DNA from: a virus
Direction: 5' to 3' (one strand)
IMG/VR virus record: IMGVR_UViG_3300044535_001024
Coordinates: 1-40,527 of that record
DNA length: 40,527 bases
Shown here: positions 556 through 37,315 of the stretch, piece after piece
Layout: each line of letters opens with the position of its first letter
How positions within the stretch are numbered: the first letter of the stretch is position 1
Made by a program: the position numbers and the translations under genes
Notes under the pieces: model-generated
Database searches by the model: none
Seen by the model: the letters and a program-made list of their open reading frames with translations, nothing else
What the model was told of the DNA's origin: nothing

Positions 556-590
556 GGGGATACTTTACGTACCCCCTTTTTATTTTTTTT
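556..590 (+). terminator. Hairpin plus T-run between sheath and HAD genes
   Basis: Bases 556-563 pair with 569-576 (GGGGATAC / GTACCCCC, one A-C mismatch) around a 5-base loop. A T-rich run follows at 577-590. Read on the plus strand this is a canonical intrinsic terminator. Read on the minus strand, the direction of the flanking genes, the stem is better paired (G-U replaces the mismatch) but no U-run follows. It may block antisense transcription or act as a processing or stabilising hairpin between the two minus-strand genes. Confidence 0.5.
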
Positions 591-3500
591 AGATATTATC
601 AAATGACGCTCCTGTTGGAGTAATCAAGAACTCAATATCAATGAATTCCAATGATTTAGTAGGTTTGATATAAATCTTACCAACTAATTGGTTTCTATCT
701 AAATCTTCAGCTGAAGATGAAACTGTTACACGGAAATCGTATAACCCTCTGTCTCTTCTGATAGCGTCTAAGATAGGATTAACTGCGTCTAAGAAATCTT
801 GTCTTACTTTATCGTCGTTTTGTTCGAACAATAACCTTACAGCTACTGCTGAAATCAACTTACGAGCTTGTAATAACAATCTTCTAACATTAATTCTGTC
901 AAGAGCACTTTCTCTAATTTGTAGAGTTTTGTTACCCCAAATTACAGTTCCCACATCAGAGAATGTTGCGATTGGATTAATTCTACCAACATAAAGAACA
1001 TCTCTGTCTTCTTGTGTTAGTTTACGTCTTGCTTTAACCGCGTTTACTAAACCTCTTGTGTAACCCGCTGATGCGAACCAAGGGAAAGCAATATTATCAG
1101 TTAATGCTAAGTTTCTACAAACCTCACCTGTTGCTGGTAAATAGATTTGTGTGTTATTAACAGTATCACGAGTTAATACCCAAGGATAATAAGTTGCCGT
1201 GTAGTTAGAGTCTAAATAACCGTCAATCATATCAACAGCTTCTTGTGGATATATGTAATCAGTTTCGTTAGTTGTTGATGGTACAAACATATTAAAGTCA
1301 GGGATTGTACAGATATACAATGAATCCGCTCTATTATATTCAATCATTTCAACAGCGTCCTCAACTAAGTTACTATTGTTTTGGAAGTCAATACCAGGTG
1401 TAACAAACACGTTAATGTTAACCGCTTCAGGATTTATATAAGTTCTTTGTCCTAATAAATAAGCGTAGTAGTCAGTGTTTGCATAATCTTGAGTATTATC
1501 TTCTACAGTTATTCTTCTGAATAATCCTGTACCTGTAGCGTTAGGATATCTATCATCAGGTGCCGCACCTGCTAAATAACCTGAAGAACCTAATTGGAAT
1601 CTATCACTATTTGTTCTAGACTCTCTGTATATATCCCATCCGTCGAATCCTCCCGCAAATAATAAAGTGAATTTTCTTGCAAATAATCTATAATAAGGAT
1701 TATCCGCGTTTTGTGGTTCACCTCTAAATGGAGCTGCCCCAACCGCAAATGCCGTTTTACCTGAAGTAACACCGTCAGTAATTGTGACAACAGTTGCTCC
1801 TGAGTCCATATGGAATCCTTTAGTCATATATGCCCAATCTTGTAATGCCGGTGATGCTGTATCTCCAAGATTTTGTTTACCAACATATTGGAAGAAATCT
1901 AAATCATATCCAATATTACTTGATACACCTAAATAAGTTCTTCTTACGTTATCTCCAGCACTTCTTGTAGGATTATCAGTACCACTTGCAAATCCGAATG
2001 GAGGGTTAAATATTGTTTCACCAGGAAAATCATATTTAGTTTTAAAAATTGGGAATGGTGAATTAACTCCATCGTATAATCTAAAGTTATATCCTTCAAA
2101 ACCACAAGGTAATGAATCCGTCGGAGCATCTTCATTAAGTTCAACCATTATAAATTTAGAATTTAATGAGTATTCCCCATCTGATGAACCAATTTTCTTA
2201 GCTACGAAGTTATTTTGGTTAGGGTCCATAGAACAATTAGTAAATTTCTCTAAAACAACAGGTGCATCATCAGTATCGTAATAATCACGAACCATTACAT
2301 CAAATGTTCCATTACTAAATGAAATATTAAAAATTGATATTTTTATTTGGTAGTTTGCACTATTACCATCCGCAATTGATATAAATTTAAATAATCTATA
2401 AACTTTAGTACCTCTTAATTCCGAAACTAAAAAAGGAGTTTCAGGTGCTTGATATCTCTCAGCGTAGTATGCGATATTATCTGACTCATTACTTCTTGCG
2501 TCCGGTAAAGAAACTAATTGGGATTTTAAACCTCTAACGTAACCTTTATTATACGCCCATCTTAATAAACTATGGAAATGTTCTTCAACAAATAAAGGAA
2601 CCTCACTTCTTGGTTTATCAAAATTACTACTACCAAATACTTTTGGTAAGTAAGTTGAATCAGAAATCGATAAAGAAGTTTTGAAAACTAAATTCTTACC
2701 ACTATCGTTAGTAACGTTAATTGCAAACGGTGCATATGGGTTTTTATCAACAGATGAATAACTTCCAGAAAAATCTAAAGTAACTGCACTTAATGGACTA
2801 ACTTCATAAGTTGGACCATCACTAGTTGAATTAAATTGAGATATACCTCTTGAACGTAAAGTTGCAACAACTAAATTATTATAGTTAGTGTAACTTGTTC
2901 CTGTATAGTAATAAATTTTACCGTGAACCGTCCCTGAGAAACTAGTTGGTTGAGTTGTAGTTGTTGTAGTTACAGGTAATGTAGTCGTTGTTGTTGAACA
3001 AGGATTTAGTGTAGTAGTAGTTGTTGTTGTTGTGGTACCTGATGGAGTTACAGGTATTGATGATGTTATAGTTAAACCAGTAACTGTAGTCCAAAATGAA
3101 AATCCTGAATAACTATTACCACTATAATTGTTAAATAACGCATAATACCAAGGGTCATTTTTAGGGTCAGTGTAATCTTCATAATAAGAAGATATTGAAG
3201 GAACACCTAATACATTAGTTTCTGTTGTGAACACGGAGCTTAAAATACCATAATCAATTTCCGAAATAGTTCCCCAATAGTTGATAGATGTTGCACTTAA
3301 ACTATTGTTTTGGAAAATAGATTGTAGTTGAGATTGAATATCTTGGTTTAAAGTTGATGTACCACCGTTGAATTGGGTATAACTATTATTCAAAATGTTT
3401 TGAATTTCAGCAGGGAATGCTGTTGAGTAACTAATACTACCGTCAACATTAGTAGTACCAGTGAAATTAACATCAAATGATACTGTGTCCGCAGTACACG

Positions 3501-3921
3501 ATAAATCACAGGTACCATCTTTATAATTAGGGATACTTGTACAATATTCCTCGAACCCAACTGTTGTTGAATCAACATTTGCAATTGTTCGAATTGACCA
3601 AGACGGACCCGCATCATAACCTGATAAACCTAATATTCTTGTCATAAACATTTGATTAGATTGTTGTAGGTATGATTTTGCAATATACGATGATTCGTAC
3701 TTTGGAATTTGTGTGTTTATGAATTTTTCTGGGTTAGTCCCACCGAAATAGGTTTGAAACTCGTCGTAGTTTGTTATAAAAATAGGTTCAAATGCAGGAC
3801 CCTTTAAAGACTCCCCAACTATACCTAAAGTTGTAACACCAACACTCTGAGCCACAAAGCTTAAGTCTCTTTCAGAAGTGTATACTCCAGGAGACACGAA
3901 TACTTTACTGTTTGTTGCCAT
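589..3921 (-). CDS. Contractile tail sheath protein (T4 gp18-like), oversized
   Basis: This 1110-residue protein is a tail sheath subunit, the contractile outer tube of a myovirus tail. The N-terminus (VFVSPGVYTSERDLSF) and the C-terminal 150 residues (VRRLLLQARKLISAVAVR, then DAVNPILDAIRRDRGLYDF and VGKIYIKPTKSLEFIDIEF) match the conserved ends of the phage sheath family. T4 gp18 has about 660 residues, so this version carries roughly 450 extra. The extra sequence lies mostly between residues about 120 and 640 and includes Thr-rich linkers at about 294-325. The core resumes near residue 650 (RRTYLGVSSNIGYDLDFF). I infer an extra domain or domains displayed on the outside of the tail. The start at 3921 is preceded by a late-promoter-like AATAAATA. 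Confidence 0.93.
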   Translation of the reverse strand: MATNSKVFVSPGVYTSERDLSFVAQSVGVTTLGIVGESLKGPAFEPIFITNYDEFQTYFGGTNPEKFINTQIPKYESSYIAKSYLQQSNQMFMTRILGLSGYDAGPSWSIRTIANVDSTTVGFEEYCTSIPNYKDGTCDLSCTADTVSFDVNFTGTTNVDGSISYSTAFPAEIQNILNNSYTQFNGGTSTLNQDIQSQLQSIFQNNSLSATSINYWGTISEIDYGILSSVFTTETNVLGVPSISSYYEDYTDPKNDPWYYALFNNYSGNSYSGFSFWTTVTGLTITSSIPVTPSGTTTTTTTTTLNPCSTTTTTLPVTTTTTTQPTSFSGTVHGKIYYYTGTSYTNYNNLVVATLRSRGISQFNSTSDGPTYEVSPLSAVTLDFSGSYSSVDKNPYAPFAINVTNDSGKNLVFKTSLSISDSTYLPKVFGSSNFDKPRSEVPLFVEEHFHSLLRWAYNKGYVRGLKSQLVSLPDARSNESDNIAYYAERYQAPETPFLVSELRGTKVYRLFKFISIADGNSANYQIKISIFNISFSNGTFDVMVRDYYDTDDAPVVLEKFTNCSMDPNQNNFVAKKIGSSDGEYSLNSKFIMVELNEDAPTDSLPCGFEGYNFRLYDGVNSPFPIFKTKYDFPGETIFNPPFGFASGTDNPTRSAGDNVRRTYLGVSSNIGYDLDFFQYVGKQNLGDTASPALQDWAYMTKGFHMDSGATVVTITDGVTSGKTAFAVGAAPFRGEPQNADNPYYRLFARKFTLLFAGGFDGWDIYRESRTNSDRFQLGSSGYLAGAAPDDRYPNATGTGLFRRITVEDNTQDYANTDYYAYLLGQRTYINPEAVNINVFVTPGIDFQNNSNLVEDAVEMIEYNRADSLYICTIPDFNMFVPSTTNETDYIYPQEAVDMIDGYLDSNYTATYYPWVLTRDTVNNTQIYLPATGEVCRNLALTDNIAFPWFASAGYTRGLVNAVKARRKLTQEDRDVLYVGRINPIATFSDVGTVIWGNKTLQIRESALDRINVRRLLLQARKLISAVAVRLLFEQNDDKVRQDFLDAVNPILDAIRRDRGLYDFRVTVSSSAEDLDRNQLVGKIYIKPTKSLEFIDIEFLITPTGASFDNI
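2955..3038 (-). repeat. Threonine-codon microsatellite in sheath gene
   Basis: Runs of ACA/ACT/ACC triplets (seen as tgt/agt/ggt on the plus strand) encode two or three poly-Thr blocks, interrupted by LNPCS and LPV, at about residues 294-325 of the sheath protein. Such low-complexity tracts usually form extended linkers and vary in length by slippage. Confidence 0.75.
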
Positions 3922-5249: not shown

Positions 5250-5798
5250 TTAGTATTTTAAAATTTCGTTAATTACGAATAATTTATTCTTTTGGTTAAT
5301 CATATCAACCTCTTTCGCTCGATATACAGGTTGTTTTGTTGATTTATAAACAAAACTATCATATTTGTAAGGGTCGTATGTTACGACATTATCATTTGAT
5401 TCCTGAGGCATATTTTTACAAGGATATTTACAATAATCAACTAAATCTCCAATAACAAAAGCGTGAACATTTTTACTTTTTTCACTTCTAACTTTTTCTT
5501 TTCCACCCTTTCTAACCCTAAACTCAACATCGTTTAATTTAACATAATCTGCGTGAAGGATTACTTTGGATTTATAAGTAACCGAAAAAGTATGTTTATG
5601 TAAGTTATAATAAACCATAACTCTTTTACCTTTAAAATCTTCTTCAGAATTATCGTGTCCACATTTATGACAAATATATGGGTCGTCACCACCTTCAGAT
5701 AAATCCCAAGACCAACCACAATTGTCACAAATTACTTCTTTATTTGTGACAGTTTCAACTATTTTTTCATACTGGGTTTCCGTTAATAATATTTTCAT
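5250..5798 (-). CDS. Zinc-ribbon protein of unknown function with N-terminal LTE tag
   Basis: This 182-residue protein begins MKILLTETQYEKIVE. Residues about 24-47 hold a zinc ribbon (CDNCGWSW and CHKCGHDN, two CxxC pairs). Next comes a conserved-looking domain, GKRVMVYYNLHKHTFSV followed by KNVHAFVIGDLVDYC, a type I recall from other phage genomes without a known function. The first seven residues fit a T4-style capsid-targeting sequence ending in L-T-E, and the next gene upstream has almost the same tag. Its ATG overlaps the upstream stop (TAATG), so the two are translationally coupled. Possibly a virion-internal, DNA- or RNA-binding protein. Confidence 0.7.
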   Translation of the reverse strand: MKILLTETQYEKIVETVTNKEVICDNCGWSWDLSEGGDDPYICHKCGHDNSEEDFKGKRVMVYYNLHKHTFSVTYKSKVILHADYVKLNDVEFRVRKGGKEKVRSEKSKNVHAFVIGDLVDYCKYPCKNMPQESNDNVVTYDPYKYDSFVYKSTKQPVYRAKEVDMINQKNKLFVINEILKY

Positions 5799-6091
5799 TA
5801 GTTCTTTCTAGAGTATTTGAACCCTGTTTTTAGTTTATCGTTATACACCGCAGATATTATCCTTAAAAAATCTATTTTTTTATAATCAATGTTAGGGTGT
5901 CTACGTTGGAACATATCACTAAGTCTTTGGGCTACCCAATTTTCATATACCCCAAAATTGTCGGGTTTATTTCTTGGACCACCACTTTTAATCTCATTAT
6001 TCAAATGATGAATAACGTAATCAACAAGGTCACTTATTTCGTGAGCTCTTCGTAATACCTCTATTTGTGATTCTGTAATTAATATTTTCAT
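5798..6091 (-). CDS. Small protein of unknown function with N-terminal ITE tag
   Basis: This 97-residue protein begins MKILITESQIEVLRRA and continues with a helical, charged sequence (ISDLVDYVIHHLNNEI, then RLSDMFQRRHPNIDYKKID). I do not recognise a domain. The first eight residues nearly repeat those of the next gene (MKILLTET). The tag resembles the T4 Alt propeptide MELITE, which the prohead protease removes. It is coupled by stop/start overlaps to both neighbours in a minus-strand operon with the gp14-like neck gene. It may be processed to about 90 residues. Confidence 0.65.
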   Translation of the reverse strand: MKILITESQIEVLRRAHEISDLVDYVIHHLNNEIKSGGPRNKPDNFGVYENWVAQRLSDMFQRRHPNIDYKKIDFLRIISAVYNDKLKTGFKYSRKN

Positions 6092-6606
6092 TATAATCCT
6101 TTAAATTCGTCAGCACTTACAGGTGATGCCGTAATAGTTCGGTAAAATGGTTTGTAACCCGCATACGTATGTTTATTATCTGAGACAACTCTACCATCAT
6201 TATTAACCACATAGTATCTAACTCTTGTTTCCGTTTCGTAGTATCCAATATAGTCTCCATATTCAATATCAATACCCAATTCTTCAAGTTGTGATTGATA
6301 TACCGATATACGAATATTACCTGGCTCAAACTGTTCAATTTTAGAATTACCTATATACTTGTTCTCAGGTGCCATTACTTGAACAAGACCCTTAAACTCC
6401 ACAGGAACTTGAAACTTAATACCATTGGAGACGGTTTCACCGTAAACATCATCTGTTTTGGTTTTATATCTATCAACACGATATAGTATTAAAGTGAAGT
6501 TCATATCTCCCTCTAACCACTCCCTTCCCATTCCAACCTCTAAATTGAAATCTTCTCCACCGAAAAATTTTCCTAATCTTGTTATAGGTACTTTATTTTG
6601 ACTCAT
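6091..6606 (-). CDS. Putative neck protein (T4 gp14-like)
   Basis: This 171-residue beta-rich protein ends with YGDYIGYYETETRVRYYVV, DGRVVSDNKHTYAGYKPFY and RTITASPV. That ending resembles the C-terminal half of gp14 neck proteins in marine T4-like phages. gp14 joins gp13 to complete the head and close the DNA channel after packaging. It is the first gene of a minus-strand series leading to the gp15-like and sheath genes. Its start at 6606 overlaps the divergent helicase reading frame by up to 9 bases. The assignment is from remembered motif similarity plus context. Confidence 0.5.
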   Translation of the reverse strand: MSQNKVPITRLGKFFGGEDFNLEVGMGREWLEGDMNFTLILYRVDRYKTKTDDVYGETVSNGIKFQVPVEFKGLVQVMAPENKYIGNSKIEQFEPGNIRISVYQSQLEELGIDIEYGDYIGYYETETRVRYYVVNNDGRVVSDNKHTYAGYKPFYRTITASPVSADEFKGL

Positions 6607-8424
6607 ATTGATAAATATCTAAAAGTTTATTATCATTACATAAATAACTGCGATTTGGAAATTAATACATCAGACAGTAAACCATTAATAGAACAACAAG
6701 CCCTTGAGATTCTTGGGACTTATTCTGGTGCGAATAACTATTTGATGAGGTTAAAAAGACAACAAGAGTTGAATAAAAAGTTCTTCCCAACAAGAGCTCA
6801 GTCAGAATACATTATAAATTATTTTAACGTCGTTCCTAAGGTTGCAAAGAAATGGGTTAATTTGGACCCCTACTTCGCTCAAAAGATTGCCGATGAAAAA
6901 CTATACACTAAAGTCCCTGAACAAATTTGGATTGAAAAACTTTTAGTTGAAAAGGACAAATCCTATCACATTTGGGGTAAGGTGTTTGAAAATGAAGATT
7001 TGCACGAATTTTGGTTGCCAAAAGGTGCTGTTATCAAAACTCATAATGTTGAAAAGGTTGAAATTGATTACTCGAAATATTCTCATCGTCCCCCACTTAA
7101 TCACCAAAAAGAGGCTATAGAAAAATTAGTAGGATGTAAAAGATTTATTTTGGCGGATGATATGGGGTTAGGTAAAACAACCTCAACAATTATCGCAACC
7201 TTAGAGACAGGAGCAAAAAAGATATTAATCATCTCTCCGGCATCCCTTAAAATTAACTGGATGAGGGAAATTCAGAATTATACTGATAGAAGTGTCTATA
7301 TTTGTGAAGGTAAAAACTACTCAACAGAACACGACTTCGTAATCATTAATTACGACATTATTAAAAATTTCTACGATATTAAGGACAAAGAGAACAGTCC
7401 AATATATCAAACAAACTTTGATTTAATAATCATCGATGAGGCTCATTATCTTCAAAACTCTCAAGCACAAAGAACAAAACTTGTCAATCATTTTGCCAAA
7501 CAAGTTGATAGATTATGGTTATTAACAGGTACCCCAATGACTTCTCGACCAATAAATTATTACAATTTATTAAACTTAATTGAGTCTCCCGTGGCACAGA
7601 ATTGGATGGCTTATGCAATTCGTTATTGTGAAGGGTATCAATTTAAGGCGGGACCAAGAAAGGTGTGGAATGTAAAAGGGGCGTCAAACTTAGAAGAATT
7701 AAGAGACAGAACATCAAGACAAGTTTTAAGACGTTTGAAAGAAGATGTGTTAGATTTACCTGATAAAATTATAACACCAGTATACCTGAGATTAAAATCA
7801 AGATTATACGAAGAATTAATGGGAGAGTATTACGATTGGTATAGAACTAAAACCGAAGAATCATCATCATTAACACTACAATTTTCAAAATTAACTAAAG
7901 TCAGACAAATCATTGCTGAGGAAAAAATATCAAGTACAATCGAGTTATGTGAGAATATCATAGAACAAGGTAAGAAGGTGATTATCTTTACAAACTTTAC
8001 AAATTCACTTCAAAAATTAGTCGAACATTTTGGAAAACAATGTGTTTTTCTTGACGGAAGTTGTTCTCAACCACAAAGACAATACGCAGTTGACCAATTC
8101 CAAAATAATGATAAAATAAATGTTTTTGTGGGTAATATTAAAGCCGCGGGAGTTGGAATCACGTTAACAGCTGCGGAGGCGGTTATTATGAATGACTTGT
8201 CGTTTTTACCTTCGGACCACAGTCAGTCTGAAGATAGGGCGTATAGATATGGACAAAAATCAAATGTATCGGTGTATTATCCGATATTTGAAAACACCAT
8301 AGAAGGTGTTATTTATGATATATTATCCAAGAAGAAATCAATCATTGAAACTGTTATGGGTGATAACCTTGATAAGACGGATTTTGTTGAAGAAGTTTTG
8401 AATTCTATAAACAATAGTAGATAA
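6598..8424 (+). CDS. SNF2-family DNA helicase/translocase
   Basis: This protein of up to 608 residues is a superfamily 2 ATPase of the SNF2/SMARCAL1 type. Visible motifs are I (DDMGLGKT, 187-194), II (DEAH, 280-283), III (LLTGTP, 308-313), a second RecA-like domain from about 455 (VIIFTNFTNSL), motif V (AAGVGITLTAAE) and motif VI (QSEDRAYRYGQ, 543-553). Such phage enzymes remodel DNA in replication and recombination, a role played by UvsW in T4. The N-terminal 160 residues hold an accessory domain. No in-frame ATG occurs before 6744, inside what looks like conserved sequence, so initiation at TTG 6598 or a nearby non-ATG codon is likely. A TGATAAATA element at 6605-6613 could be a promoter if the start is downstream. 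Confidence 0.9.
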   Translation: MTHIDKYLKVYYHYINNCDLEINTSDSKPLIEQQALEILGTYSGANNYLMRLKRQQELNKKFFPTRAQSEYIINYFNVVPKVAKKWVNLDPYFAQKIADEKLYTKVPEQIWIEKLLVEKDKSYHIWGKVFENEDLHEFWLPKGAVIKTHNVEKVEIDYSKYSHRPPLNHQKEAIEKLVGCKRFILADDMGLGKTTSTIIATLETGAKKILIISPASLKINWMREIQNYTDRSVYICEGKNYSTEHDFVIINYDIIKNFYDIKDKENSPIYQTNFDLIIIDEAHYLQNSQAQRTKLVNHFAKQVDRLWLLTGTPMTSRPINYYNLLNLIESPVAQNWMAYAIRYCEGYQFKAGPRKVWNVKGASNLEELRDRTSRQVLRRLKEDVLDLPDKIITPVYLRLKSRLYEELMGEYYDWYRTKTEESSSLTLQFSKLTKVRQIIAEEKISSTIELCENIIEQGKKVIIFTNFTNSLQKLVEHFGKQCVFLDGSCSQPQRQYAVDQFQNNDKINVFVGNIKAAGVGITLTAAEAVIMNDLSFLPSDHSQSEDRAYRYGQKSNVSVYYPIFENTIEGVIYDILSKKKSIIETVMGDNLDKTDFVEEVLNSINNSR

Positions 8425-8468: not shown

Positions 8469-10130
8469 ATGAAAAACTTAGTAAACAAGATTGAAGAGTT
8501 GAAAGAAGAAGTTAAAAAAAATGAACGTGACTTTGCCCAAAAATTTTTCATTAATGAAATGAAAAAAATAGGTATTGAAAAATTACCTTACTCCTACAGT
8601 TCCCTTAAAAGATTTATTGACCCCGAAACTATGGATGTCCACTATAACAAACACTACAAAGGTTATGTGGAAAAATTAAACTTAGCATTGGATAAGAAAA
8701 AATTTGGGGATTTAGATTTAGAACAAATAGTTAAAACAATTAGTAGATTTAATAATGATGTTAGAAACAATGCCGGAGGAGCTTACAATCACGCATTATT
8801 TTGGAAAATGTTATCCCCAACCCAACAAAAACCGGGAGGATTAGTTTTAAAAAGAATTGAAAAAGATTTTGGAAGTCTTGCGGGTTTAAAGAAAAAATTT
8901 AACGCAATTGCAAAAGAAAGATTTGGTTCAGGATGGGTTTGGTTAGTTATCACCAAAAACAATTCTTTAAAGATTATGTCAACACCAAATCAAGACAATC
9001 CATTAATGAACGATGTTGAAAATGGTGGGTACCCAATTCTTGGATTAGATATATGGGAACATGCTTATTATTTAAAATACAGAAATAAACGAGACGAATA
9101 TGTTAAAAACTTTTGGGAAGTTGTTAATTGGGAGTTTGTTGAAAAACTTTATAAAATGAAAATTGAAACTCGTATTGATGAAGAAGTAGTTATGATGCAA
9201 TTAATGAATAGTACATCTCAAGATATTTTAACAGAATCAGAAATAAAATCTCAAAGTTGTTCTCACAGTGAGGAACTTAAATTTAAATCCTTATTATTTC
9301 CATCCAGTAATTTACCATACATTTTTAAGAAGTTTAAATATGACTATGTACAAGGGTGGATGGATATTCTTAAAAAAGAATACCCTCAAAATTGGAGAGA
9401 AAAAAACTCATTATTTGTTGGTCACGAGGCAGGTTTATACGATAAACAAAATGTTAGGTCTTTATTAATGAATTTAACTTCATCATATTCTGCATTTTGT
9501 GTTATCCATAAAGATATTAACCAATATTTGTCTCAAAATGGACAACCTAAAATAGAATACGGTGATGACCCACAGATAAATTTATCTGAATTAAAAAGAT
9601 TCTTTTCTGTTTTAGACGGACTTCGTTCACAAATTTTCAATAGAAATACACAATCTAATACTTTAAAACAAATAGGGGGTATCTTAAAAAGAACCGATTG
9701 TTTAGGTAAACGAAATGAAGACGCGGCAATGAAAATTATTAACCAACATTTAGGTGAAGGTGCTTGTGAAATCCAAGCCGGAGCGGGTAGTTCTTCAGAT
9801 ATGTTGTCAGGGATTGATGCCACTGTAACTATAAATAACCAATCATTAACGGGTCAAATTAAACCTTTTCAAATTATAACACAATTACCAGATGGTAGTT
9901 TTTCAATACAAGGTTCGTCAAGTCTTCAAGAATATAAGAAAGTTGATATTATCATATTTGTCAATGTTAAAAGTAAAACTGTTAAGATTTATAAAACAAA
10001 TGGTATTAAAATCAATAAAAATACATTCGTTATTCCAAATGAAAATGAAATTATGACATTAGTTGGTTCTAAAGATTTGGAATTAATTGATTGTAACAAA
10101 TATTTATCAGAAAACATAATATGGGAATAA
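8469..10130 (+). CDS. Superoxide dismutase fused to PD-(D/E)XK nuclease-like domain
   Basis: Residues about 37-230 form a complete Fe/Mn superoxide dismutase. The metal ligands are H58, H108, D194 and H198 (DIWEHAYY), with GSGWVWLV at 153-160. Q175 in STPNQDNPL and AGGAYNH suggest the manganese type. This enzyme turns superoxide into oxygen and hydrogen peroxide. Residues about 260-553 form a second domain. Its motifs E417, D450 (SGIDATV) and Q463-I-K465 (TGQIKPF) fit a PD-(D/E)XK nuclease core. The junction at 251-257 reads QDILTES, a good match to a T4-type prohead protease site. No family I know joins these two domains. It overlaps the next gene by 10 bases. The SOD call is firm; the nuclease call is tentative. 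Confidence 0.88.
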   Translation: MKNLVNKIEELKEEVKKNERDFAQKFFINEMKKIGIEKLPYSYSSLKRFIDPETMDVHYNKHYKGYVEKLNLALDKKKFGDLDLEQIVKTISRFNNDVRNNAGGAYNHALFWKMLSPTQQKPGGLVLKRIEKDFGSLAGLKKKFNAIAKERFGSGWVWLVITKNNSLKIMSTPNQDNPLMNDVENGGYPILGLDIWEHAYYLKYRNKRDEYVKNFWEVVNWEFVEKLYKMKIETRIDEEVVMMQLMNSTSQDILTESEIKSQSCSHSEELKFKSLLFPSSNLPYIFKKFKYDYVQGWMDILKKEYPQNWREKNSLFVGHEAGLYDKQNVRSLLMNLTSSYSAFCVIHKDINQYLSQNGQPKIEYGDDPQINLSELKRFFSVLDGLRSQIFNRNTQSNTLKQIGGILKRTDCLGKRNEDAAMKIINQHLGEGACEIQAGAGSSSDMLSGIDATVTINNQSLTGQIKPFQIITQLPDGSFSIQGSSSLQEYKKVDIIIFVNVKSKTVKIYKTNGIKINKNTFVIPNENEIMTLVGSKDLELIDCNKYLSENIIWE

Positions 10131-11233
10131 TTGCAGAACCACAAAGAACAAAACTATATACGAGAGTTAAACATTTACTTGGAGCTCCGTTAAGAAGTGT
10201 TGAATTAGAAGACGAAATGTTAGATTCATTACTTGAATTATCTATTGGGGACTATTCTCAATACATTCAAGATTGGTTAATAGAATCTCAATGGGCGGCA
10301 CTTCAAAATCTTAATTTAGACGAACAATCTCTGACTCGAGCGTTTATTACAAGAAGTTTAGATTATGAAACAAGATATTCTTACGCATATTCTAAAATTG
10401 TTGGGTTACAAGCTGGAGGAGATTGGGTGTTGAAAAAAGATTATTTTGAATTAGTTAGAGGACAACAATTATATGAAATACCTAAAGGAAGAGAAATTAA
10501 TGAATTACTTTGGTTTACTCCCGCAACATTAACCAATGTTCTTTTTGACCCATTCGCATTTGGTGCTATGGGTGGACCTGGACTTGGTGGAACGGGTGGA
10601 TTCGCTCAATTGGGTTATTCAGGTTCGTACACAATGATGCCGGCTTTTGATATGTTGTTAAGAATGCAAGAAACCAACATACAAAGACGTATCTTAGGAG
10701 GTGATTTAACTTATAGAATAACCGCGTTACCTGACGGCAAAAAAATGATTCATTTAATGAACACACCTGGTGGTAAATTTGACTTTGGTAGTGCAAATAT
10801 GCAGGGTGGTAAAGTTTGGTATTGGTATTACGATGTTGACGGTCCCGATAGAGACGCTTGTTTAAAGGCAAATCCTGATATTGTAAAATTACCATCTGAC
10901 GTTCCGATTGATGAAATTTCTTGGGTTGATTTAAATAATCCCGCTCAACAATGGGTAAGAAGATGGTTCATCGGATTATGTAAAGAAACTTTAGGAAGAG
11001 TTAGAGGAAAATATAGTGGTAACTTAAAAACACCTGATAGTGAACTTACTATGGATTATACAAGTTTGTTAACTGAGGGTAAAGATGAAAGAGCGAAACT
11101 ACAAGAAGAATTAATGGCACGTCTTGAAAGATTAAGACCTGAAAAAATGATGGAAAAAGAAGCATCAATCGCAGAAAATTTAAATAAGGCAATGAAGTTT
11201 AGAGCAATGCCAAGACAAATATACGTAATTTAA
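10121..11233 (+). CDS. Putative neck protein (T4 gp13-like)
   Basis: This 370-residue soluble protein starts MGIIAEPQRTKLYTRVKHL, followed by an acidic helical N-terminal region. It has a Gly-rich insert at about 150-170 (GGPGLGGTGG). It ends with a long helical stretch, LGRVRGKYSGNL, ELTMDYTSLLTEGKDERA and LEERLRP-like LMARLERLRPE. This layout resembles neck protein gp13 of marine T4-like phages, which docks on the portal after packaging. Lying next to a small structural-looking gene and near a gp14-like gene supports this. The LTEG in the conserved helix is probably not a cleavage site. Function is inferred, not shown by catalytic residues. Confidence 0.5.
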   Translation: MGIIAEPQRTKLYTRVKHLLGAPLRSVELEDEMLDSLLELSIGDYSQYIQDWLIESQWAALQNLNLDEQSLTRAFITRSLDYETRYSYAYSKIVGLQAGGDWVLKKDYFELVRGQQLYEIPKGREINELLWFTPATLTNVLFDPFAFGAMGGPGLGGTGGFAQLGYSGSYTMMPAFDMLLRMQETNIQRRILGGDLTYRITALPDGKKMIHLMNTPGGKFDFGSANMQGGKVWYWYYDVDGPDRDACLKANPDIVKLPSDVPIDEISWVDLNNPAQQWVRRWFIGLCKETLGRVRGKYSGNLKTPDSELTMDYTSLLTEGKDERAKLQEELMARLERLRPEKMMEKEASIAENLNKAMKFRAMPRQIYVI

Positions 11234-14827: not shown

Positions 14828-17173
14828 TTAAGATTCTTTTCTTAATTTTCCATCATAAAAATCAAAACGATTGTGTTCTGTTGGAGTTAACAATAGTAAT
14901 CCCGGATTAATATTTCCTTTTACAGTCTCTTGATAACAATGACTCATTAATGTTTGTTCAAAAGGACGTTCCCATTTTGTTTCTAAATAACATTTATAAT
15001 TACCTTCTCTTGTTAATACTATAGGCCAATTACACAAATAAATTTCACCTGTGGCATAAGGTAAACCTTTATGTGTTTTTATCTCCTTAAACTGTGTTTT
15101 AGGTGAATTTGGGTCTAACCCTTGAACCGGTAATTTAGGATTATTTGGCCATTGTTTCTGTCTAAAATCTTGAGGTACATTATACCAACTCCATTGGACG
15201 CTATTATCACCAAAAAATTCACTAAAATTTAATTTAAGGAAATCAAAATTTTCTTTTTGTAAAATATCTAAAGATTTTTGATACAAATTATTAACAAACC
15301 TAGGAAATCCATTTCTACACACCTCTCCAATTTTAGGGTAAAACGCCATATCATCTTCAAACCACCAATAACAATCTAAATCAGTCTCATTAAAATGTTC
15401 GGCAACAAACACTCTACCACCAACAATACCAATGTTATCTTTTTTAATGTGTTCAAAACCATACTTTTCACATAATTCAATATATTGTGGTGTTGTTGAT
15501 AAATCTGTTGAATTATCTAATAAGAATTTTCTTGGTTTTTCAATAAAATCCGCATCATAATCTAACATTGATTGTATTAACACTTCAAATTGTTTTGGTG
15601 AATTGAAAGTAATTACATAAAGACCAACTTTTGATGTGTCTATGTCCGCACTATTAATTAAAATAGATTTAGAACTTTCTGTTTTTACCTCAACATTATC
15701 ATTCTTTAAATCCTCAAAAAATTTACCCATTAAACCATTACCATCAATTTCAGAATACGTAATTAATTCAGGGTATTTATATGTCATAATTGTAAATAAA
15801 CTTTCCTCAGTACCCATTAAACCTTGGGATAAAGTGTCATTCATTAAACCATAATAAAGATTATTTATATCAGAAATAGAATCTTTCTTACCTCCAAAAA
15901 AACCAGCTCTAGCAACTTTATTAACCGATTTACCTGCTAAGTCACATAATTCATTATATTTAAATCCGTGTATTTCAGTATTTGCGTCATATGGAAAACA
16001 AACAAAATGAAAGTTTTTAACTAATTTAGGTAACTTATCTAAAACTTTATCGTGAGTAAAATAACCAGGGTGAATTGTATTGGTTAATCCAGCATCAATC
16101 CAAAACATATATTTAGAATTAAATTTATCTAAAATTTTGGCGTCGTGTAATAGATACACTTTTGACATAACCAAAGGATTGTACATTTCTAATTTAGCTT
16201 GTGTTGAATTTGTTAACCAACCAACTTGATTATACCAATCAGGATTAGTTCTTATTTTTTGTATTTTATTATAAAAATCATTGTTCTTAAACCAAGATAA
16301 ATCTCTACGAACAAATTGAGTTTTTTCACTACTTCTATTATTTAATACAAATTTTTCTAATTCTTCATCACCAAAAATTATCATATTTACATCAACTTGT
16401 AATAGTTGTTGGAATTTATCCAAATAATGTTGGAATGAACGAGACCAACCTTCTTGAAGGTTACTTCTACCAATATCCCATAATCCGGTAACTAATGTTG
16501 TTGCATTATTAGAACCACCACCACTTTTAATTTTAACTATTTTTGAATTTTTTTTGTAACCACCTACTTGAGTAACAACCTCAACTACATTATTTTCAAT
16601 ACCTTTTAATTCAAAGAAATCCTTAATAGCTGCTTCAACTCCTGGTAAATCATTTCTTTTATAATCGTGGAAAAAAATATAACCACCATCAACGACTCTG
16701 TCGTATACCTTAACCAAACTATCGTATATTGAATCGTAAAAATCTCCATCTAAAAACGCAAATGAAATTTTTTCAGGTAACCTATTTTCCGGAATATCAC
16801 AAAACCAACCTTTTGTTATTATTGGAGTTGGTAAATTATTCTCAATAAAATTACTTGTTAAAACGTCTTCACTAGTAACCAATGTTCTAGGTCTCCAACC
16901 AGTGTTTATTTCCCATTTAGACAAATCCGGCAATCCCTCAAATGAATCATATACATATAATTTTTTATTAGAATTAGTTTCAATTAAAGTTTTCATTAGG
17001 TATTTACTGGATTCACCAACATAACAACCTAATTCAACAACATCACCATCGATATTATTTTCAATAGTATCTAACAAATACTCAACTAATTTTTTAACTT
17101 GGTCTTGATTAATAATTGACGAATCCACTTGTTTATTGTGAAAATTCATTATTTCATTTAACTTATTTTTCAT
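14828..17173 (-). CDS. Trimodular methyltransferase / HtrL-YibB-like / glycosyltransferase protein
   Basis: This 781-residue protein seems to be three enzymes in one. Residues 1 to about 210 match TylF/MacroCin-type O-methyltransferases: SAM motif VVELGCYVGESS, VYDSFEGLPD, and metal-site SFAFLDGDFYDS. A GGG-rich linker (about 217-223) leads to residues about 225-480, which resemble the HtrL/YibB family (TTLVTGLWDIGRSNLQE, MFWIDAGLTNT, AGFFGGKKDSI), thought to be GT-A glycosyltransferases. Residues about 515-781 look like a third GT-A domain (GLYVITFNSPKQFEVLIQS, WWFEDDMAFY). It probably methylates and elongates a glycan. It is the last gene of the minus-strand sugar operon. Confidence 0.75.
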   Translation of the reverse strand: MKNKLNEIMNFHNKQVDSSIINQDQVKKLVEYLLDTIENNIDGDVVELGCYVGESSKYLMKTLIETNSNKKLYVYDSFEGLPDLSKWEINTGWRPRTLVTSEDVLTSNFIENNLPTPIITKGWFCDIPENRLPEKISFAFLDGDFYDSIYDSLVKVYDRVVDGGYIFFHDYKRNDLPGVEAAIKDFFELKGIENNVVEVVTQVGGYKKNSKIVKIKSGGGSNNATTLVTGLWDIGRSNLQEGWSRSFQHYLDKFQQLLQVDVNMIIFGDEELEKFVLNNRSSEKTQFVRRDLSWFKNNDFYNKIQKIRTNPDWYNQVGWLTNSTQAKLEMYNPLVMSKVYLLHDAKILDKFNSKYMFWIDAGLTNTIHPGYFTHDKVLDKLPKLVKNFHFVCFPYDANTEIHGFKYNELCDLAGKSVNKVARAGFFGGKKDSISDINNLYYGLMNDTLSQGLMGTEESLFTIMTYKYPELITYSEIDGNGLMGKFFEDLKNDNVEVKTESSKSILINSADIDTSKVGLYVITFNSPKQFEVLIQSMLDYDADFIEKPRKFLLDNSTDLSTTPQYIELCEKYGFEHIKKDNIGIVGGRVFVAEHFNETDLDCYWWFEDDMAFYPKIGEVCRNGFPRFVNNLYQKSLDILQKENFDFLKLNFSEFFGDNSVQWSWYNVPQDFRQKQWPNNPKLPVQGLDPNSPKTQFKEIKTHKGLPYATGEIYLCNWPIVLTREGNYKCYLETKWERPFEQTLMSHCYQETVKGNINPGLLLLTPTEHNRFDFYDGKLRKES

Positions 17174-17194
17174 TTTTTTCGATATATTATTGTA

Positions 17195-17812
17195 TTATTT
17201 AATGTCATTTAAAGAACATAAGTGAATAAATTCGTGAGCACCCATAACTACTTCAGTTCTCTCTAATTTTTCATTTAAATAAGTTCTTGTTGAATCACCT
17301 GACGGGTGATAATGGTAATATTTTAAGTCCATACTCGGGTTAAAAACATTCAATTTTAAATCGCACATTAATATTGACGCGAGTCTATTATCACATCCTG
17401 GACGACCCAAAGGTATTTGTTCCTCAGTGTTTAAATCAACTGAACCGTAAAATATAAAAACGTCTTGAGAATCTTTAGCCCTAAAATGTTTAATATCATT
17501 TTCGTTTAAATAATCCCATCTTGTTAATCCTAAACATAATTTTTCTTTATCTTTATAATTGGTATATAAATTGTGTAAATCATTTAAAAACTTATCATCA
17601 AAAAAATTATCGGGGTTTGCAATTATATTAATATCGTTAGGGTATTTTTTCATTTCGTTTAAAAACGAATTATATGTTGGTCTTTTAGTATTATCAATAT
17701 AATATTGATTAAAATTTAATTTTTTATTTTTTTCATAACAAAAATTAAATTCATTTTCTCTTATTATATTTTTAGTGTCATAAAACCAACCTGTAAAAAG
17801 ATTAATATTCAT
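17195..17812 (-). CDS. GT-A-like glycosyltransferase
   Basis: This 205-residue protein has a single domain. Key motifs are IIANPDNFFDD near residue 63 (an N-P/S-D element taking the place of DxD), LGLTRWDY near 93, DSQDVFIFYGSV near 114 and LGRPGCDNRLA near 134. It ends with NPS and the His-rich YYHYHPSG. I know this pattern from phage and giant-virus sugar loci. It shares its start with the stop of the next gene upstream (overlap of one base), so the two are coupled. The sugar and acceptor are unknown. Confidence 0.6.
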   Translation of the reverse strand: MNINLFTGWFYDTKNIIRENEFNFCYEKNKKLNFNQYYIDNTKRPTYNSFLNEMKKYPNDINIIANPDNFFDDKFLNDLHNLYTNYKDKEKLCLGLTRWDYLNENDIKHFRAKDSQDVFIFYGSVDLNTEEQIPLGRPGCDNRLASILMCDLKLNVFNPSMDLKYYHYHPSGDSTRTYLNEKLERTEVVMGAHEFIHLCSLNDIK

Positions 17813-19329
17813 TACAACGGATTATTTTTAATATAGTTTTCACCATTTATCTCAGGTTGGGATTTTGCCTGTCCCTGATATCGTCTTGAAGCATCCGTAT
17901 GTCCAACATATGGACCTTCACCCATATCTCCATATAAAAAAGTTCCCCAATCATCTCTAATATCTTCCCATTTATTTTCACTAATAATTTTTCGGTAATG
18001 AGGTATCATAGTTTCCTCAACATTGTGACAACTTTGATGTGAAAACCCAACATGCTCATTTTTAATAATATTATAATACCATTCTTCCATTTTAGATGTT
18101 CTAAAAATAACGGGATTATTAGACCATCTACAAGTTGTGACTAAATCAACCTCTGTTACTCGAGTTTCTTTTTCAAATGGAGTTGTCTTATCTTCAACAT
18201 CTCTAGCAATCTCAAATCCCCTCATAATATTATCATCTTTTGCAAACCAAACCGCGTTAATAAAATTATGATTATTAAATGCTTTTAATAAGTTGTCAAA
18301 ATTAATCTTATTTTTTTCTAAGAAAACCCAATCGTGTTCCAGAAATAAAAAATAAGGGGTTTTTATTTTTGGTAATACGTTATCTATTGTTGATATTAAA
18401 CCACCAAAACTAAATGATAACTCAGCGTTTAAATCTGATTTAACATCTCTAAAATAGGCATTTAACTTAACAATTTCACTATTAATATCATCATTTCCAG
18501 ATTTATCATAATGTATTATAAATTTACATTTTGAAAGTTCATTAGGTAAACTATGTAATAAATAATTTAAATAAAATTTGTGATTTTCTACAAAATGTCC
18601 GGCAACAACAACTGTTAATTCTTTTTCTATTTTAAAATCTGTAAATACTCCGTTTGGATAGTTATCATATAAAAATTTATGATAATTCCCCATAATCCAC
18701 GTTGTATAATCAACCGGACCCCTAGGTTGTAAAGTAGATTCAAAACCGACTGAGTGATTAAAACTTAATGGTATTGTTGTTAATGTTATAAATCCTTTAC
18801 TATTTAATAGTGGTAAATAATCATCGATGGCAATATAATCTTTTTTATAATTAGAATTTTCTAAAATATATTTATACGCTCTTTTTTTAATTAAATAAGC
18901 CCAAGCTCCGGTACTTTTATCTACAATACCAAGATTATTTGTTATTGGTCGTATTTGTGATTTAGGATTACATCCTAATAATATTACATCCCATTCTACA
19001 TTTTGTAAATCAGTATAAACATCTTTAAGAACATCACTAAATTTTTTAATATCATTATAAGGAAAATAACATTCATCCTCAATATTAAAATCATCCTCAC
19101 CAACAAATATTATTGGCAAATCCTCGTCCAATGATTGTTTAAAAACTTCTAAATGACTCTTAGTACAAGAGTATTGTATCATTTCATCAGTCAATGCCTC
19201 GAAACGATTTAACCCCTCAATATTATATTGTAACATTAATTCTTTCATCTTTTGGTTTCTATCTGTAGATGTCGGTAAATTAATGTAATATCCTTTATCT
19301 GCTAATTTATAATTTAATATTTTAAACAT
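17812..19329 (-). CDS. Two-domain glycosyltransferase (GT25-like plus GT2-like)
   Basis: This protein has 505 residues. The N-terminal half resembles GT25 LPS glycosyltransferases: GYYINLPTSTDRNQKMKEL, SCTKSHLEVF, IIFVGEDDF and WDVILLGCNP, then GAWAYLIKKRA. The C-terminal half, from about residue 215, resembles a GT2-type domain: ELTVVVAGHFVENHKFYL, LISTIDNVLPKIKTPYFLF and LEHDWVFLE. Two active sites in one chain would allow successive sugar additions. It lies 2 bases after the stop of the upstream gene, inside a tightly packed operon. Confidence 0.7.
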   Translation of the reverse strand: MFKILNYKLADKGYYINLPTSTDRNQKMKELMLQYNIEGLNRFEALTDEMIQYSCTKSHLEVFKQSLDEDLPIIFVGEDDFNIEDECYFPYNDIKKFSDVLKDVYTDLQNVEWDVILLGCNPKSQIRPITNNLGIVDKSTGAWAYLIKKRAYKYILENSNYKKDYIAIDDYLPLLNSKGFITLTTIPLSFNHSVGFESTLQPRGPVDYTTWIMGNYHKFLYDNYPNGVFTDFKIEKELTVVVAGHFVENHKFYLNYLLHSLPNELSKCKFIIHYDKSGNDDINSEIVKLNAYFRDVKSDLNAELSFSFGGLISTIDNVLPKIKTPYFLFLEHDWVFLEKNKINFDNLLKAFNNHNFINAVWFAKDDNIMRGFEIARDVEDKTTPFEKETRVTEVDLVTTCRWSNNPVIFRTSKMEEWYYNIIKNEHVGFSHQSCHNVEETMIPHYRKIISENKWEDIRDDWGTFLYGDMGEGPYVGHTDASRRYQGQAKSQPEINGENYIKNNPL

Positions 19330-19331
19330 AA

Positions 19332-20099
19332 TTAATATCTATCTTCAATTTTATGATTGGGATAAAATGGGAATGATTCCCATTTTAATTTAAATCCAGA
19401 TGTTGGAATAACAAAGGATAAGTTTCCGTGTTTATTATTACCATAACCATATCCAAATTCTTTTTCATATCCAAAAGTGGTAAACTTATGCCAATTATCA
19501 ACGAATTTAAGAATATCTTTATTAGTTTCACCAATAAAAACTTGGCAAGGACCATCTAAGGTATCATAATCATCAACATTGTAATTTAAATTAAAATGTT
19601 TAATATAATCATCGTGATAGTTAAAAACGTCATCAGGTGTTTTATTTGAATATTTAAAAACCGCAGAATTTGTTTTAACTGTATTTGGTTCATATTTTTG
19701 TTTCAATTCGTTAAAAATTTCCTCACCTGTTAGGTGTGTGTGAAATCGATTATCCGCATCTACATATATGATATAATCAAACCCATCAATTGCTGCTTGT
19801 TCAATGATAAATCTTCGTAGATTCCAGGGATATCTAGAAGGATATAATCCTTTAGGGTCTTCTGGTAATAATTCTAATTCTTTTGATTTAATATTATTTT
19901 TACGTAAATCATCTATGTTAAAAACTTTAATAAAATCATTTGAATTATATTCGATGAATTCATTAGGTATATTTGTTGATATATAATATGATATATCAAA
20001 GTCGTATAATTTTTTATTCAAAAAATCATTTAATGACGATAATTTTATTCTATTTACATAATTAGGGTATGTAACTTCTGTTGCAAAACAAATTTTCAT
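19332..20099 (-). CDS. GT-A-fold glycosyltransferase
   Basis: This 255-residue protein starts MKICFATEVTYPNYVNRIK. The donor-site DxD is seen in YIIYVDADNRFHTHLTG at about residues 111-127. RYPWNLRRFIIEQAA precedes it and DGPCQVFIGE, then HGNLSFVIPTSGFKL, follow. No membrane segment is present, so it is probably cytoplasmic. It is packed 3 bases after the GlcNAc-transferase-like gene on the same strand. The sugar donor and acceptor cannot be told from the sequence. Confidence 0.6.
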   Translation of the reverse strand: MKICFATEVTYPNYVNRIKLSSLNDFLNKKLYDFDISYYISTNIPNEFIEYNSNDFIKVFNIDDLRKNNIKSKELELLPEDPKGLYPSRYPWNLRRFIIEQAAIDGFDYIIYVDADNRFHTHLTGEEIFNELKQKYEPNTVKTNSAVFKYSNKTPDDVFNYHDDYIKHFNLNYNVDDYDTLDGPCQVFIGETNKDILKFVDNWHKFTTFGYEKEFGYGYGNNKHGNLSFVIPTSGFKLKWESFPFYPNHKIEDRY

Positions 20100-20102
20100 A
20101 TA

Positions 20103-21353
20103 TTATAAATTTCCTTCAATTTTATCACACCATCCTTTAGATGATGAGTATGGCCAAACAACCCATTTAGTTGGTTTTTCCGCAGTTTGGAATTCTCTCC
20201 AAATCTTACAATATCCGTCTTTATCAGATTTAATTCTTGAGATTTCATCTTTATCAGCATCCCTTCTATACAATTCTTGACCTCCTTCTCTTTCAAAAAT
20301 AACCGCCCAAAAATCATAATCATTTTCAGGAACTTGAGAAAATGAAACATCAATACAATGTTTAAAAATAGATGAGAAACTATTCATCCATTCTTCATCA
20401 TTCTCATAATTGTAAGGGTTCGGAGGATACTTTTTATCCAAAGTATATTGTTGTACCGCTCTTTTACCAAAAAGAAGTCCTGAGTATTTTTCATAATCTT
20501 TTAACGTTCTTTCAGTACCAAATCCAAAAATACCAAACTCCTCAGGGTTAAACACTTCACCATCCATACTGAATAATCGTCTATTCTTTGCGTGAGCTCT
20601 TGAGTTCTTTTCACCCCAAGTCTTGTCATCATCCCATTGTTTAGTTCTACCATTACGAGTATATTCATGCCAAATAACAACTTTATGTGGGTGGAATAAA
20701 TCATATCCGTGAGTATAAGCTCTTGCGGCAATTGAAATTTCTTCACCGTGGAAATAGAATTCAGGGTCGTGTTGAACTTCTTTTGAGAATTGTCCTACTG
20801 TGAATGCGAAATGAGCAGAATAAAATCTTGACGGTACAGGTTCTGTTAAAGTCTCCCAATTTGGTATTGTTTCAGGTAAAAAGAATACAGCACCTTCAGG
20901 AATGAATCTATCAAATGACATTCTCCACGGAACAGTAACCCTTCCGTTAGGGTCGTTTTCAGGGTCAAAGGAAGACACATAACTCGTTAATAACGGTTTT
21001 TTATATCCTTTTTTTTGTAAACCCTTAATCATATCAATTAAGGTTTTATCCCAATTCTTCTCAAATCTCATATGAGAATCAATTTGCATTGTATATTTTT
21101 CTCCCTGATATAATTGTTGGGTTATGTGTCGTGCCCAACAAACACCTTTTGATTCCTCATAAGGAATATTTGTAATTCTGAATCTATCGTCATTTTCATA
21201 TTCGGATAAATCATCAAATTTATCATTAGGATGAAACTGTCGGGCAATTGAAAAAACTAAATTTTTTGGATTCTTAGCTTTATCAATTGCATCTTTAATT
21301 GTTGGTATTAATTGTGGGTCGCGATAAGAGGCGATTTGAATGAATATTTTCAT
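20103..21353 (-). CDS. GlcNAc-transferase-like glycosyltransferase (GlcNAc/Skp1 type)
   Basis: This 416-residue protein begins MKIFIQIASYRDPQLIPTI, the signature start of the family that includes Skp1 polypeptide GlcNAc-transferase (Pfam GlcNAc, PF11397). Further matches are GVCWARHITQQLYQGE, TMQIDSHMRF (the DxH metal site) and FYFHGEEISIAARAYTHGYDL. In eukaryotes the family adds GlcNAc to a hydroxyproline; bacterial and phage members are mostly uncharacterised. It lies just downstream of a fibre gene rich in Thr and Pro, which suggests a possible protein acceptor. The C-terminal 110 residues (from about 300) may be an extra domain. Confidence 0.8.
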   Translation of the reverse strand: MKIFIQIASYRDPQLIPTIKDAIDKAKNPKNLVFSIARQFHPNDKFDDLSEYENDDRFRITNIPYEESKGVCWARHITQQLYQGEKYTMQIDSHMRFEKNWDKTLIDMIKGLQKKGYKKPLLTSYVSSFDPENDPNGRVTVPWRMSFDRFIPEGAVFFLPETIPNWETLTEPVPSRFYSAHFAFTVGQFSKEVQHDPEFYFHGEEISIAARAYTHGYDLFHPHKVVIWHEYTRNGRTKQWDDDKTWGEKNSRAHAKNRRLFSMDGEVFNPEEFGIFGFGTERTLKDYEKYSGLLFGKRAVQQYTLDKKYPPNPYNYENDEEWMNSFSSIFKHCIDVSFSQVPENDYDFWAVIFEREGGQELYRRDADKDEISRIKSDKDGYCKIWREFQTAEKPTKWVVWPYSSSKGWCDKIEGNL

Positions 21354-21435: not shown

Positions 21436-21564
21436 CTAATCATTAAGAGCAAAAATAACTCTTGTTGATAAAATTCTTAATACATTATTGGAAACACTAA
21501 ACGAGGTATCATTTGCTCCGACATTACTTATTGTTACTAATACTGTTTGAATTACCGTACTATT
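21436..21564 (-). other. Out-of-frame open extension of the fibre gene
   Basis: After the fibre stop TAA (21565-21563) a frame shifted by one base stays open for 42 codons to TAG at 21438-21436. It starts [16 protein letters not shown] and ends ILSTRVIFALND, a protein-like beta-rich sequence. It has no start codon of its own. It could be a 3' end lost through a recent frameshift, the product of programmed +1 slippage at the stop, an assembly error, or chance. It fills most of the 209-base gap before the next gene; the rest is the terminator and an A/T-rich leader. Confidence 0.35.
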
Positions 21565-27136: not shown

Positions 27137-27427
27137 ATGGCACAACAAGAACCAATTGATTTAACTCAAAATGAGAAAAACTCATTATCGGCAATCGCCG
27201 AATTAGAAAGAAAAAAATTATTTCCAAGAAACGATTACAACACATCTAATTTGTATTCGTCCACTAATCCAGATGCTTTGGCAACAGGAGATGAACTAGG
27301 TAAAGGAACTGGAGGTGATTTAGATGTGTATAATAATAACGCAGGAGCAATTCAAGATATTATTGAAAGAAAAAAAGAAATAGTTATTAACAAGTTCACC
27401 CAAGATAAAACATATCCTGATTTCTAA
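27137..27427 (+). CDS. Small phage protein of unknown function
   Basis: This 96-residue protein begins MAQQEPIDLTQNEKNSLSAI. A helix (AIAELERKKLF, 19-29) is followed by a Tyr/Asn-rich part, DALATGDELGKGTGGDLDVY, then DIIERKKEIVINKF. It is hydrophilic with no membrane segment. IAE at 20-22 fits a loose (L/I)-X-E protease site but lacks the T-E-S form of its neighbours. It is packed between genes carrying that form and its stop overlaps the next start (TAATG). It may belong to the same virion set. Confidence 0.6.
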   Translation: MAQQEPIDLTQNEKNSLSAIAELERKKLFPRNDYNTSNLYSSTNPDALATGDELGKGTGGDLDVYNNNAGAIQDIIERKKEIVINKFTQDKTYPDF

Positions 27428-28402: not shown

Positions 28403-28451
28403 ACTTTCTTTTTTACCATTTTTTTGTTATTCTTATTTGAAAACAATTATA

Positions 28452-29663: not shown

Positions 29664-29673
29664 AAAACATAAT

Positions 29674-30126: not shown

Positions 30127-30128
30127 AA

Positions 30129-30830: not shown

Positions 30831-30831
30831 T

Positions 30832-31389: not shown

Positions 31390-31399
31390 AATATTAAAA

Positions 31400-33624: not shown

Positions 33625-33680
33625 AAACCACATAAACGAATAAAGTATATTTATATCAATAAAAAATAAATTTTTTAAAA

Positions 33681-34972: not shown

Positions 34973-34979
34973 ATTATAA

Positions 34980-37305: not shown

Positions 37306-37315
37306 ATAACAAAAA

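Follow-up and report, generated by a model that had tools for sequence, protein, structure and literature searches.

A superoxide dismutase-nuclease fusion gene of uncultured T4-like phages: a candidate capsid cargo polyprotein with conserved (I/L)-x-E sites at its joints

Why should a phage encode a superoxide dismutase (SOD) and a predicted DNA nuclease in a single polypeptide chain, and what is the role of the short (I/L)-x-E tripeptides found at the joints of that chain? The question is raised by a gene in a 40.5-kb virus-record fragment (IMGVR_UViG_3300044535_001024), the whole 40,527 nucleotides of which are referred to here as the window. The original prediction, made from the letters alone, held that the protein enters the prohead as one chain and is cut there into two cargo enzymes. 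The gene and its two enzyme domains are located as follows.

8469..10130, plus strand: SOD-nuclease fusion gene, an intact ORF of 553 aa plus stop (553 codons)
8574..9155, plus strand: Mn-type superoxide dismutase domain, residues 36-229, from Pfam, PDB matches and invariant ligands
9237..10127, plus strand: predicted C-terminal PD-(D/E)XK-type nuclease domain, residues 257-553, from AF2 and Foldseek
9717..9863, plus strand: putative active-site residues of the nuclease (E417, D450, Q463, K465), the same in all 79 full-length homologues

The N-terminal enzyme had been described as a full Mn-type SOD, and it was indeed found to be intact. Residues 36-116 matched Pfam Sod_Fe_N (E 3.7e-21, 75.8 bits against a curated cut-off of 27) and residues 125-226 matched Sod_Fe_C (E 5.5e-40, 136 bits, curated cut-off 20.9), solved SODs were retrieved in a PDB sequence search with E values down to 4e-63, and the metal ligands H58, H108, D194 and H198, together with the Mn-type Q175 and G104, were invariant in 79/79 full-length sequences. 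By sequence, residues 36-226 are a canonical Fe/Mn SOD of the Mn type and, as the active-site residues are invariant over deep divergence, the domain appears to be under selection. Fe/Mn SODs are likewise found in other large phages (e.g., Callisto, PA5oct-like phages and Vibrio phage 2.275.O), in which they are free-standing proteins of 182-190 aa comprised of the SOD only, whereas here a nuclease is fused to it; a fold search with the full model added one further free-standing viral SOD (A0A6J5L7W0, 182 aa) and nothing else notable. The SODs encoded by freshwater phages have been interpreted as host-protecting auxiliary genes (PMC6802176). Both this interpretation and the free-standing phage enzymes favour the main rival to a packaged polyprotein, namely a bifunctional enzyme which is synthesised during infection but does not enter the virion, its SOD being an auxiliary metabolic gene fused by chance; we regard this as unlikely, if well short of negligible.

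The C-terminal domain gave no sequence-profile match, and nothing credible was found for it in Pfam, PHROGs or PDB-sequence searches; matches to LcrV, a histidine kinase and ERCC6 were scattered, below cut-offs, and were rejected. Its AlphaFold2 model (35 sequences) has a pLDDT of 89.3 and a pTM of 0.84, and when this was compared with the PDB using Foldseek the PD-(D/E)XK homing endonuclease I-Ssp6803I came first (E 1.9e-3, prob 1.00) with Hjc resolvases next, these two filling ranks 1-8. The similarity is modest, with a TM-score of about 0.5 on the target for the best match and a sequence identity to these nucleases of only 8-14%; fold matches in a viral library include annotated PD-(D/E)XK proteins. 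The E/D/QxK pattern first proposed from the sequence (E417...D450...Q463-x-K465) was invariant in 79/79 and lies on a confidently predicted fold, so that the nuclease assignment stands, the comparison with PD-(D/E)XK folds proposed alongside it having given the solved matches above. The domain is accepted here, by modelled fold and residues, as nuclease-type and of the PD-(D/E)XK type, i.e., as a predicted nuclease.

The QxK variant is known to be catalytic in the DREN domain of SPARDA (D41, Q60, K62), which itself resembles I-Ssp6803I (PMC12205087). The D...QxK arrangement of DREN is shared by the C-terminal domain, which differs from I-Ssp6803I, Hjc and DREN in adding approximately 120 helical residues before the core and in its conserved C264, R330 and C344. 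It is this large extra helical part (residues 265-390), for which no match was found, together with the modest resemblance to solved nucleases, that would suit a DNA-binding scaffold holding the SOD on the packaged genome in place of an active nuclease. However, the invariance of E417, D450, Q463 and K465 is as expected for catalysis and the precedent of DREN points the same way, and the scaffold is considered very improbable. A longer relative of the domain was also seen in the viral library: A0A8D9CCA0, from an uncultured marine phage, carries the C-domain fold inside a much longer chain of 1113 aa (TM-score 0.73 on the query, 17% identity), and is possibly another polyprotein with a different cargo.

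The original prediction knew of no such fusion. This holds for the named phages in INPHARED, in a search of which the fusion was absent, and no published description of a SOD-nuclease fusion was found in a literature search; it does not hold for viral contigs, a scan of which with the fusion gave at least 599 related stretches, nor for UniProt, where the viral-library fold search located the fusion in A0A6J5L953 (501 aa, from an uncultured phage), labelled only 'superoxide dismutase'. Among the best 80 of these at least 599 relatives, nearly all encode the complete fusion as a single ORF of 509-559 aa. The fusion gene is therefore real, old and widespread, and it is carried by large, uncultured T4-like phages which form a widespread group. 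Several INPHARED matches to SODs at 40-48% identity were set aside as short unannotated or whole-genome-shotgun records which, judged from the listing, have the look of bacterial DNA. No relative of the C-terminal domain was found in a scan of genome contigs with patterns from one sequence, which distant relatives would escape, and scans from divergent C-domains added few loci beyond those already collected. Two contigs carry one and the same sequence (L075 and L076, 5995-7625) in which the fusion gene lies in two frames with the break inside the nuclease domain, either a real frameshift or an assembly error; these were rejected as SOD-only versions, as the remainder of the nuclease follows the break.

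The SOD is preceded by an N-terminal extension, and the boundaries of the protein are marked by three tripeptide sites (a slash denotes the predicted cut).

8469..8558, plus strand: N-terminal tag, residues 1-30, a predicted single helix, variable, ending in a conserved INE
8550..8558, plus strand: site 1, (I/L/M)xE, residues 28-30 (INE/M), in 73/73 homologues with a correctly called start
9174..9182, plus strand: site 2, (I/L/M)xE, residues 236-238 (IDE here, elsewhere mostly LNE or INE), in 79/79
9228..9236, plus strand: site 3, (I/L)xE, residues 254-256 (LTE/S), in 79/79 despite linker indels

Solved SODs do not have the 30-residue extension, their alignments beginning at query residues 27-38. 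In the full-length model it forms a helix (residues 2-33), and its sequence is free to vary up to the site at its end, with a mean column entropy of 2.06 bits for residues 2-27 compared with 0.39 for E30, the latter arising from mis-called starts only. It is likely to be a capsid-targeting propeptide, in other words a capsid address. One site lies at each boundary of the protein, the first closing the tag, the second following the SOD and the third preceding the nuclease, and they are conserved although tag and linker diverge around them. A protease-like site had been proposed at the domain junction (QDILTES, residues 251-257); it is present there, although it is not the sole site but one of three which are conserved, and the (L/I)-x-E of this junction was found in all 79 full-length homologues, so that among these the prediction passed the check, set with it, that no linker should lack this motif. 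In a first set of 59 non-redundant homologues all three sites were present in every one (counting one M at P3 of site 2). Six homologues seemingly without site 1 proved to have mis-called starts, and five of these have the site once re-read, the sixth (L147) not being among them.

Within the sites P1 is always E and P3 always I or L (rarely M), whilst P2 may be N, T, S, V, L, K, D or others; a variable P2 between fixed P1 and P3 is the signature of a motif and not of a conserved fold. Apart from the SOD active-site strand (residues 195-197, IWEH), no aligned position other than these keeps (I/L/M)xE in at least 90% of sequences, and site 3 is kept in all 79 across a linker indel of roughly 10 residues. 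In composition shuffles the motif fell exactly at residues 28-30 in 5% of sequences and two linker sites arose in 22%, compared with 73/73 observed in each case, a comparison which should not be read as an independent-sample p-value because the sequences are related. The full-length model is least confident at residues 235-261, the linker containing sites 2 and 3; as it was built with a shallow SOD alignment and has a low pTM (0.50), this is no more than a hint that the linker sites are flexible. The motif is also short, which counts against a cleavage reading, and for an enzyme never packaged the tripeptides would be helix caps or other structural residues. Such an explanation does not sit easily with a motif which every one of the three boundaries retains and which, the SOD active site apart, is kept nowhere else in the alignment, nor with a site 3 that survives linker indels. 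As conserved sites of the phage-protease type lie at every joint, packing as one chain followed by cutting is probable.

Natural versions of the protein without the SOD indicate which parts belong together. There were 26 distinct C-domain ORFs in the set without the SOD motif, although one of them arises only from the broken frame of L075/L076 and another is cut short where its contig ends. These versions are comprised of a tag and a nuclease at the same locus as the fusion, and in most of them the tag is retained, which again argues against the unpackaged bifunctional enzyme. In the L165 type (309 aa) the tag with INE/MKKIEIEKL and ISE/G is joined straight to a nuclease that is 93% identical to that of a SOD-bearing relative, a clean excision of the SOD from between the two outer joints. 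In the L157 type (294 aa) the order is tag, LSE/S, nuclease. On a tree of 74 C-domains two state changes are required, on the starred branches, and as SOD-bearing rows lie on both sides of the midpoint root, two losses of the SOD are the simplest reading, so that it went at least twice. The tag region and nuclease stayed while the SOD was lost, which makes tag plus nuclease the invariable element and the SOD a cargo that can be dispensed with; in this respect the original prediction is changed. Homologues with the two halves as separate genes had also been anticipated; no SOD was found elsewhere in eight SOD-less records (93-318 kb, possibly incomplete).

The sites are not uniformly retained once the SOD has gone. 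In some SOD-less lineages the tag is much shortened, and the L219 (LVLIQT) and L231 (ILSTEK) groups have lost the (I/L)-x-E before the nuclease, which the L165 and L157 types keep; this partly qualifies the outcome of the linker check in the full-length homologues. Neither tag nor site can thus be strictly needed for the nuclease, and the lost sites fit a site serving mainly to separate the two enzymes.

The fusion gene has the same neighbours in nearly all relatives.

6598..8424, plus strand: SNF2-type helicase gene (Pfam SNF2-rel_dom and Helicase_C), directly upstream of the fusion gene
10121..11233, plus strand: neck or head-tail adaptor gene (PHROG 211, head-tail adaptor Ad2, E 3.6e-9)

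The SNF2 gene lies upstream in 87/87 relatives with room for it and the neck gene directly downstream in 91 of 94 distinct relatives; in the window the start of the neck gene overlaps the end of the fusion gene. This position, between the two genes and overlapping the neck start, suggests late, virion-related expression, and the synteny with a neck gene is a further point against an enzyme that is never packaged. The same neighbourhood, and a nuclease that is constant beside a dispensable SOD, could instead mean that the nuclease serves the neck/portal region, either structurally or as a head-completion enzyme, and that gp21 trims it, with the SOD as a passenger of little role. We find this improbable: a passenger would hardly keep its active-site residues invariant over deep divergence, the C-terminal domain has no similarity to any annotated head-completion family, and the nuclease also occurs without the cleavage site. 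Elsewhere in the window, a tail sheath protein of 1110 aa (589-3921, minus strand) has a Thr-rich insertion (TTTTTTTTLNPCSTTTTTLPVTTTTTT), its PHROG tail sheath match being confined to the C-terminal part, and a 1420-aa protein (21563-25825, minus strand) with long Thr-Pro repeats and a Cys-rich N-terminal half has the look of a surface or fibre protein. Two large gene blocks (14828-21353, minus strand, and 28437-40526, plus strand) resemble, judged from their translations, glycosyltransferases, methyltransferases and nucleotidyl- or sugar-modifying enzymes.

A prohead setting requires a protease. Both gp21 and gp23 are absent from the window itself, which is a 40.5-kb fragment, and among 15 partial records carrying the fusion a gp21-type prohead protease (PF03420, over cut-off) was found in five and the gp23 major capsid protein (PF07068) in six; the presence of this T4-type pair in related contigs supports the prohead setting of the original prediction. 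In all six gp23 proteins examined, the N-terminus reads ...AS(F/H)LINE/A at residues 57-60, which is near the propeptide cut of T4 gp23, a protein that loses a propeptide of 65 residues (PMC9958956). In T4, gp21 cuts Alt at ITE-6 and LTE-619 (PMC5694885), the second of which is the very tripeptide found at the SOD-nuclease junction. Alongside these T4 gp21 cuts, tripeptides of one kind thus occur both in the capsid protein, where a cut is expected, and at the joints of the cargo.

The closest parallels are with proteins that T4 packages and injects. The internal proteins of T4 are injected and bear a sequence that targets them to the capsid, and staphylococcal nuclease has been packaged in active T4 by means of an internal-protein targeting sequence (PMC3012670), so that a nuclease inside the head is not absurd. 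Removal of a propeptide at (I/L)-x-E is common to Alt and the internal proteins, and the same protease family is present in relatives with the fusion; by analogy, the fusion may be read as working like a gp21-processed ejection protein such as Alt. There are differences. The T4 internal proteins share their tag, whereas the tag of approximately 30 residues was not found in any other protein of G001, a 158-kb relative (203 ORFs; best local score 40, compared with 163 for itself), and because it is unshared in this record the fusion was not placed with the IPI-III family. Moreover, Alt and the internal proteins are trimmed at their ends, whereas the cuts predicted here would release two folded enzymes; in the proven cases of prohead-protease action consulted here it is the ends of single proteins that are trimmed, and two enzymes from one chain would be new. 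The ejection proteins of phiKZ/SPN3US-type giant phages have long N-terminal propeptides with several protease sites which are removed before ejection (PMC5694885, PMC10052503), but there the specificity is S/A-x-E and the propeptides are not enzymes, whilst in the fusion it is (I/L)-x-E with enzymes lying between the sites. A functional parallel is provided by the chlorovirus PBCV-1, the virion of which packages a Cu/Zn SOD and DNA restriction endonucleases, the latter thought to degrade host DNA within minutes (PMC7019647). There, SOD and DNA endonucleases are combined in one virion, as is predicted for the fusion; PBCV-1 is an unrelated virus whose SOD is Cu/Zn and not Mn-type, encoded by separate genes without prohead-protease processing.

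The best explanation is a T4-type capsid cargo polyprotein, packed into the head as one chain and cut there, and on the sequence evidence we hold this to be probable. From it we infer a course of packaging, cleavage and ejection, and an activity and target for each enzyme. The tag would direct the chain to the prohead's scaffold core. Cuts there by the gp21-type protease, one behind each of the three glutamates, would discard the tag together with an 18-residue linker and leave the SOD and nuclease as two separate enzymes. DNA would then be packaged around them and both would be ejected with the genome; the nuclease would most likely attack host DNA or competing DNA at an early stage, and the SOD would limit superoxide damage, whether to the packaged DNA or within the infected cell. 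Of the two, the nuclease would be the function that is always present, whilst the SOD would be an accessory cargo dropped by some lineages. That a tailed phage delivers a SOD and a DNA nuclease in its virion by means of a polyprotein whose capsid address can be removed and whose joints each bear a protease site is, in our judgement, slightly favoured; so, taken jointly with it, is the view of the locus as a modular cargo cassette that can lose an enzyme from between its sites, as the SOD-less versions have.

Short N-terminal peptides of a similar kind were noticed on other proteins. Many begin with MK-x-(I/L)(I/L)TE(S/T/N), for example MKILLTET, MKILITES, MKYIITES and MKKIIKLTES; such starts are found in the window at 5250-5798 and 5798-6091 (both minus strand) and 27427-27834 (plus strand), and in G001 (loci L097-L104). 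In G001, (I/L)(N/T/S/A/V)E occurs within residues 2-13 in 24 of 203 ORFs, where 6.8 are expected from shuffling and the maximum in 500 shuffles was 15. These proteins may represent a large class of tagged, packaged proteins (compare ITE-6 of Alt), or a paralogous family. The 135-aa protein at 27427-27834 (34083-34490 in G001), which has no PHROG match, begins with MKLINTIKNLITE/AA, behind which lies a compact, conserved domain (KVVIIYYDGDEPGGRGLREIEPV...), and is a further candidate for tagged head cargo.

If the polyprotein reading is correct, common aquatic phages would bring antioxidant and DNA-cutting enzymes into the cell with the genome, before any phage gene is expressed, and would do so by means of a polyprotein cut by the capsid protease. 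A bacteriophage would here have a SOD packaged in its virion, and some phage SODs at least, now taken for auxiliary metabolic genes expressed during infection, would have to be seen as virion cargo. The boundary motif, in which folded domains are bracketed by (I/L)xE, would then provide a sequence rule by which other head cargo could be sought in uncultured phages, and the arrangement as a whole would be a natural, modular route for loading enzymes into T4-like capsids.
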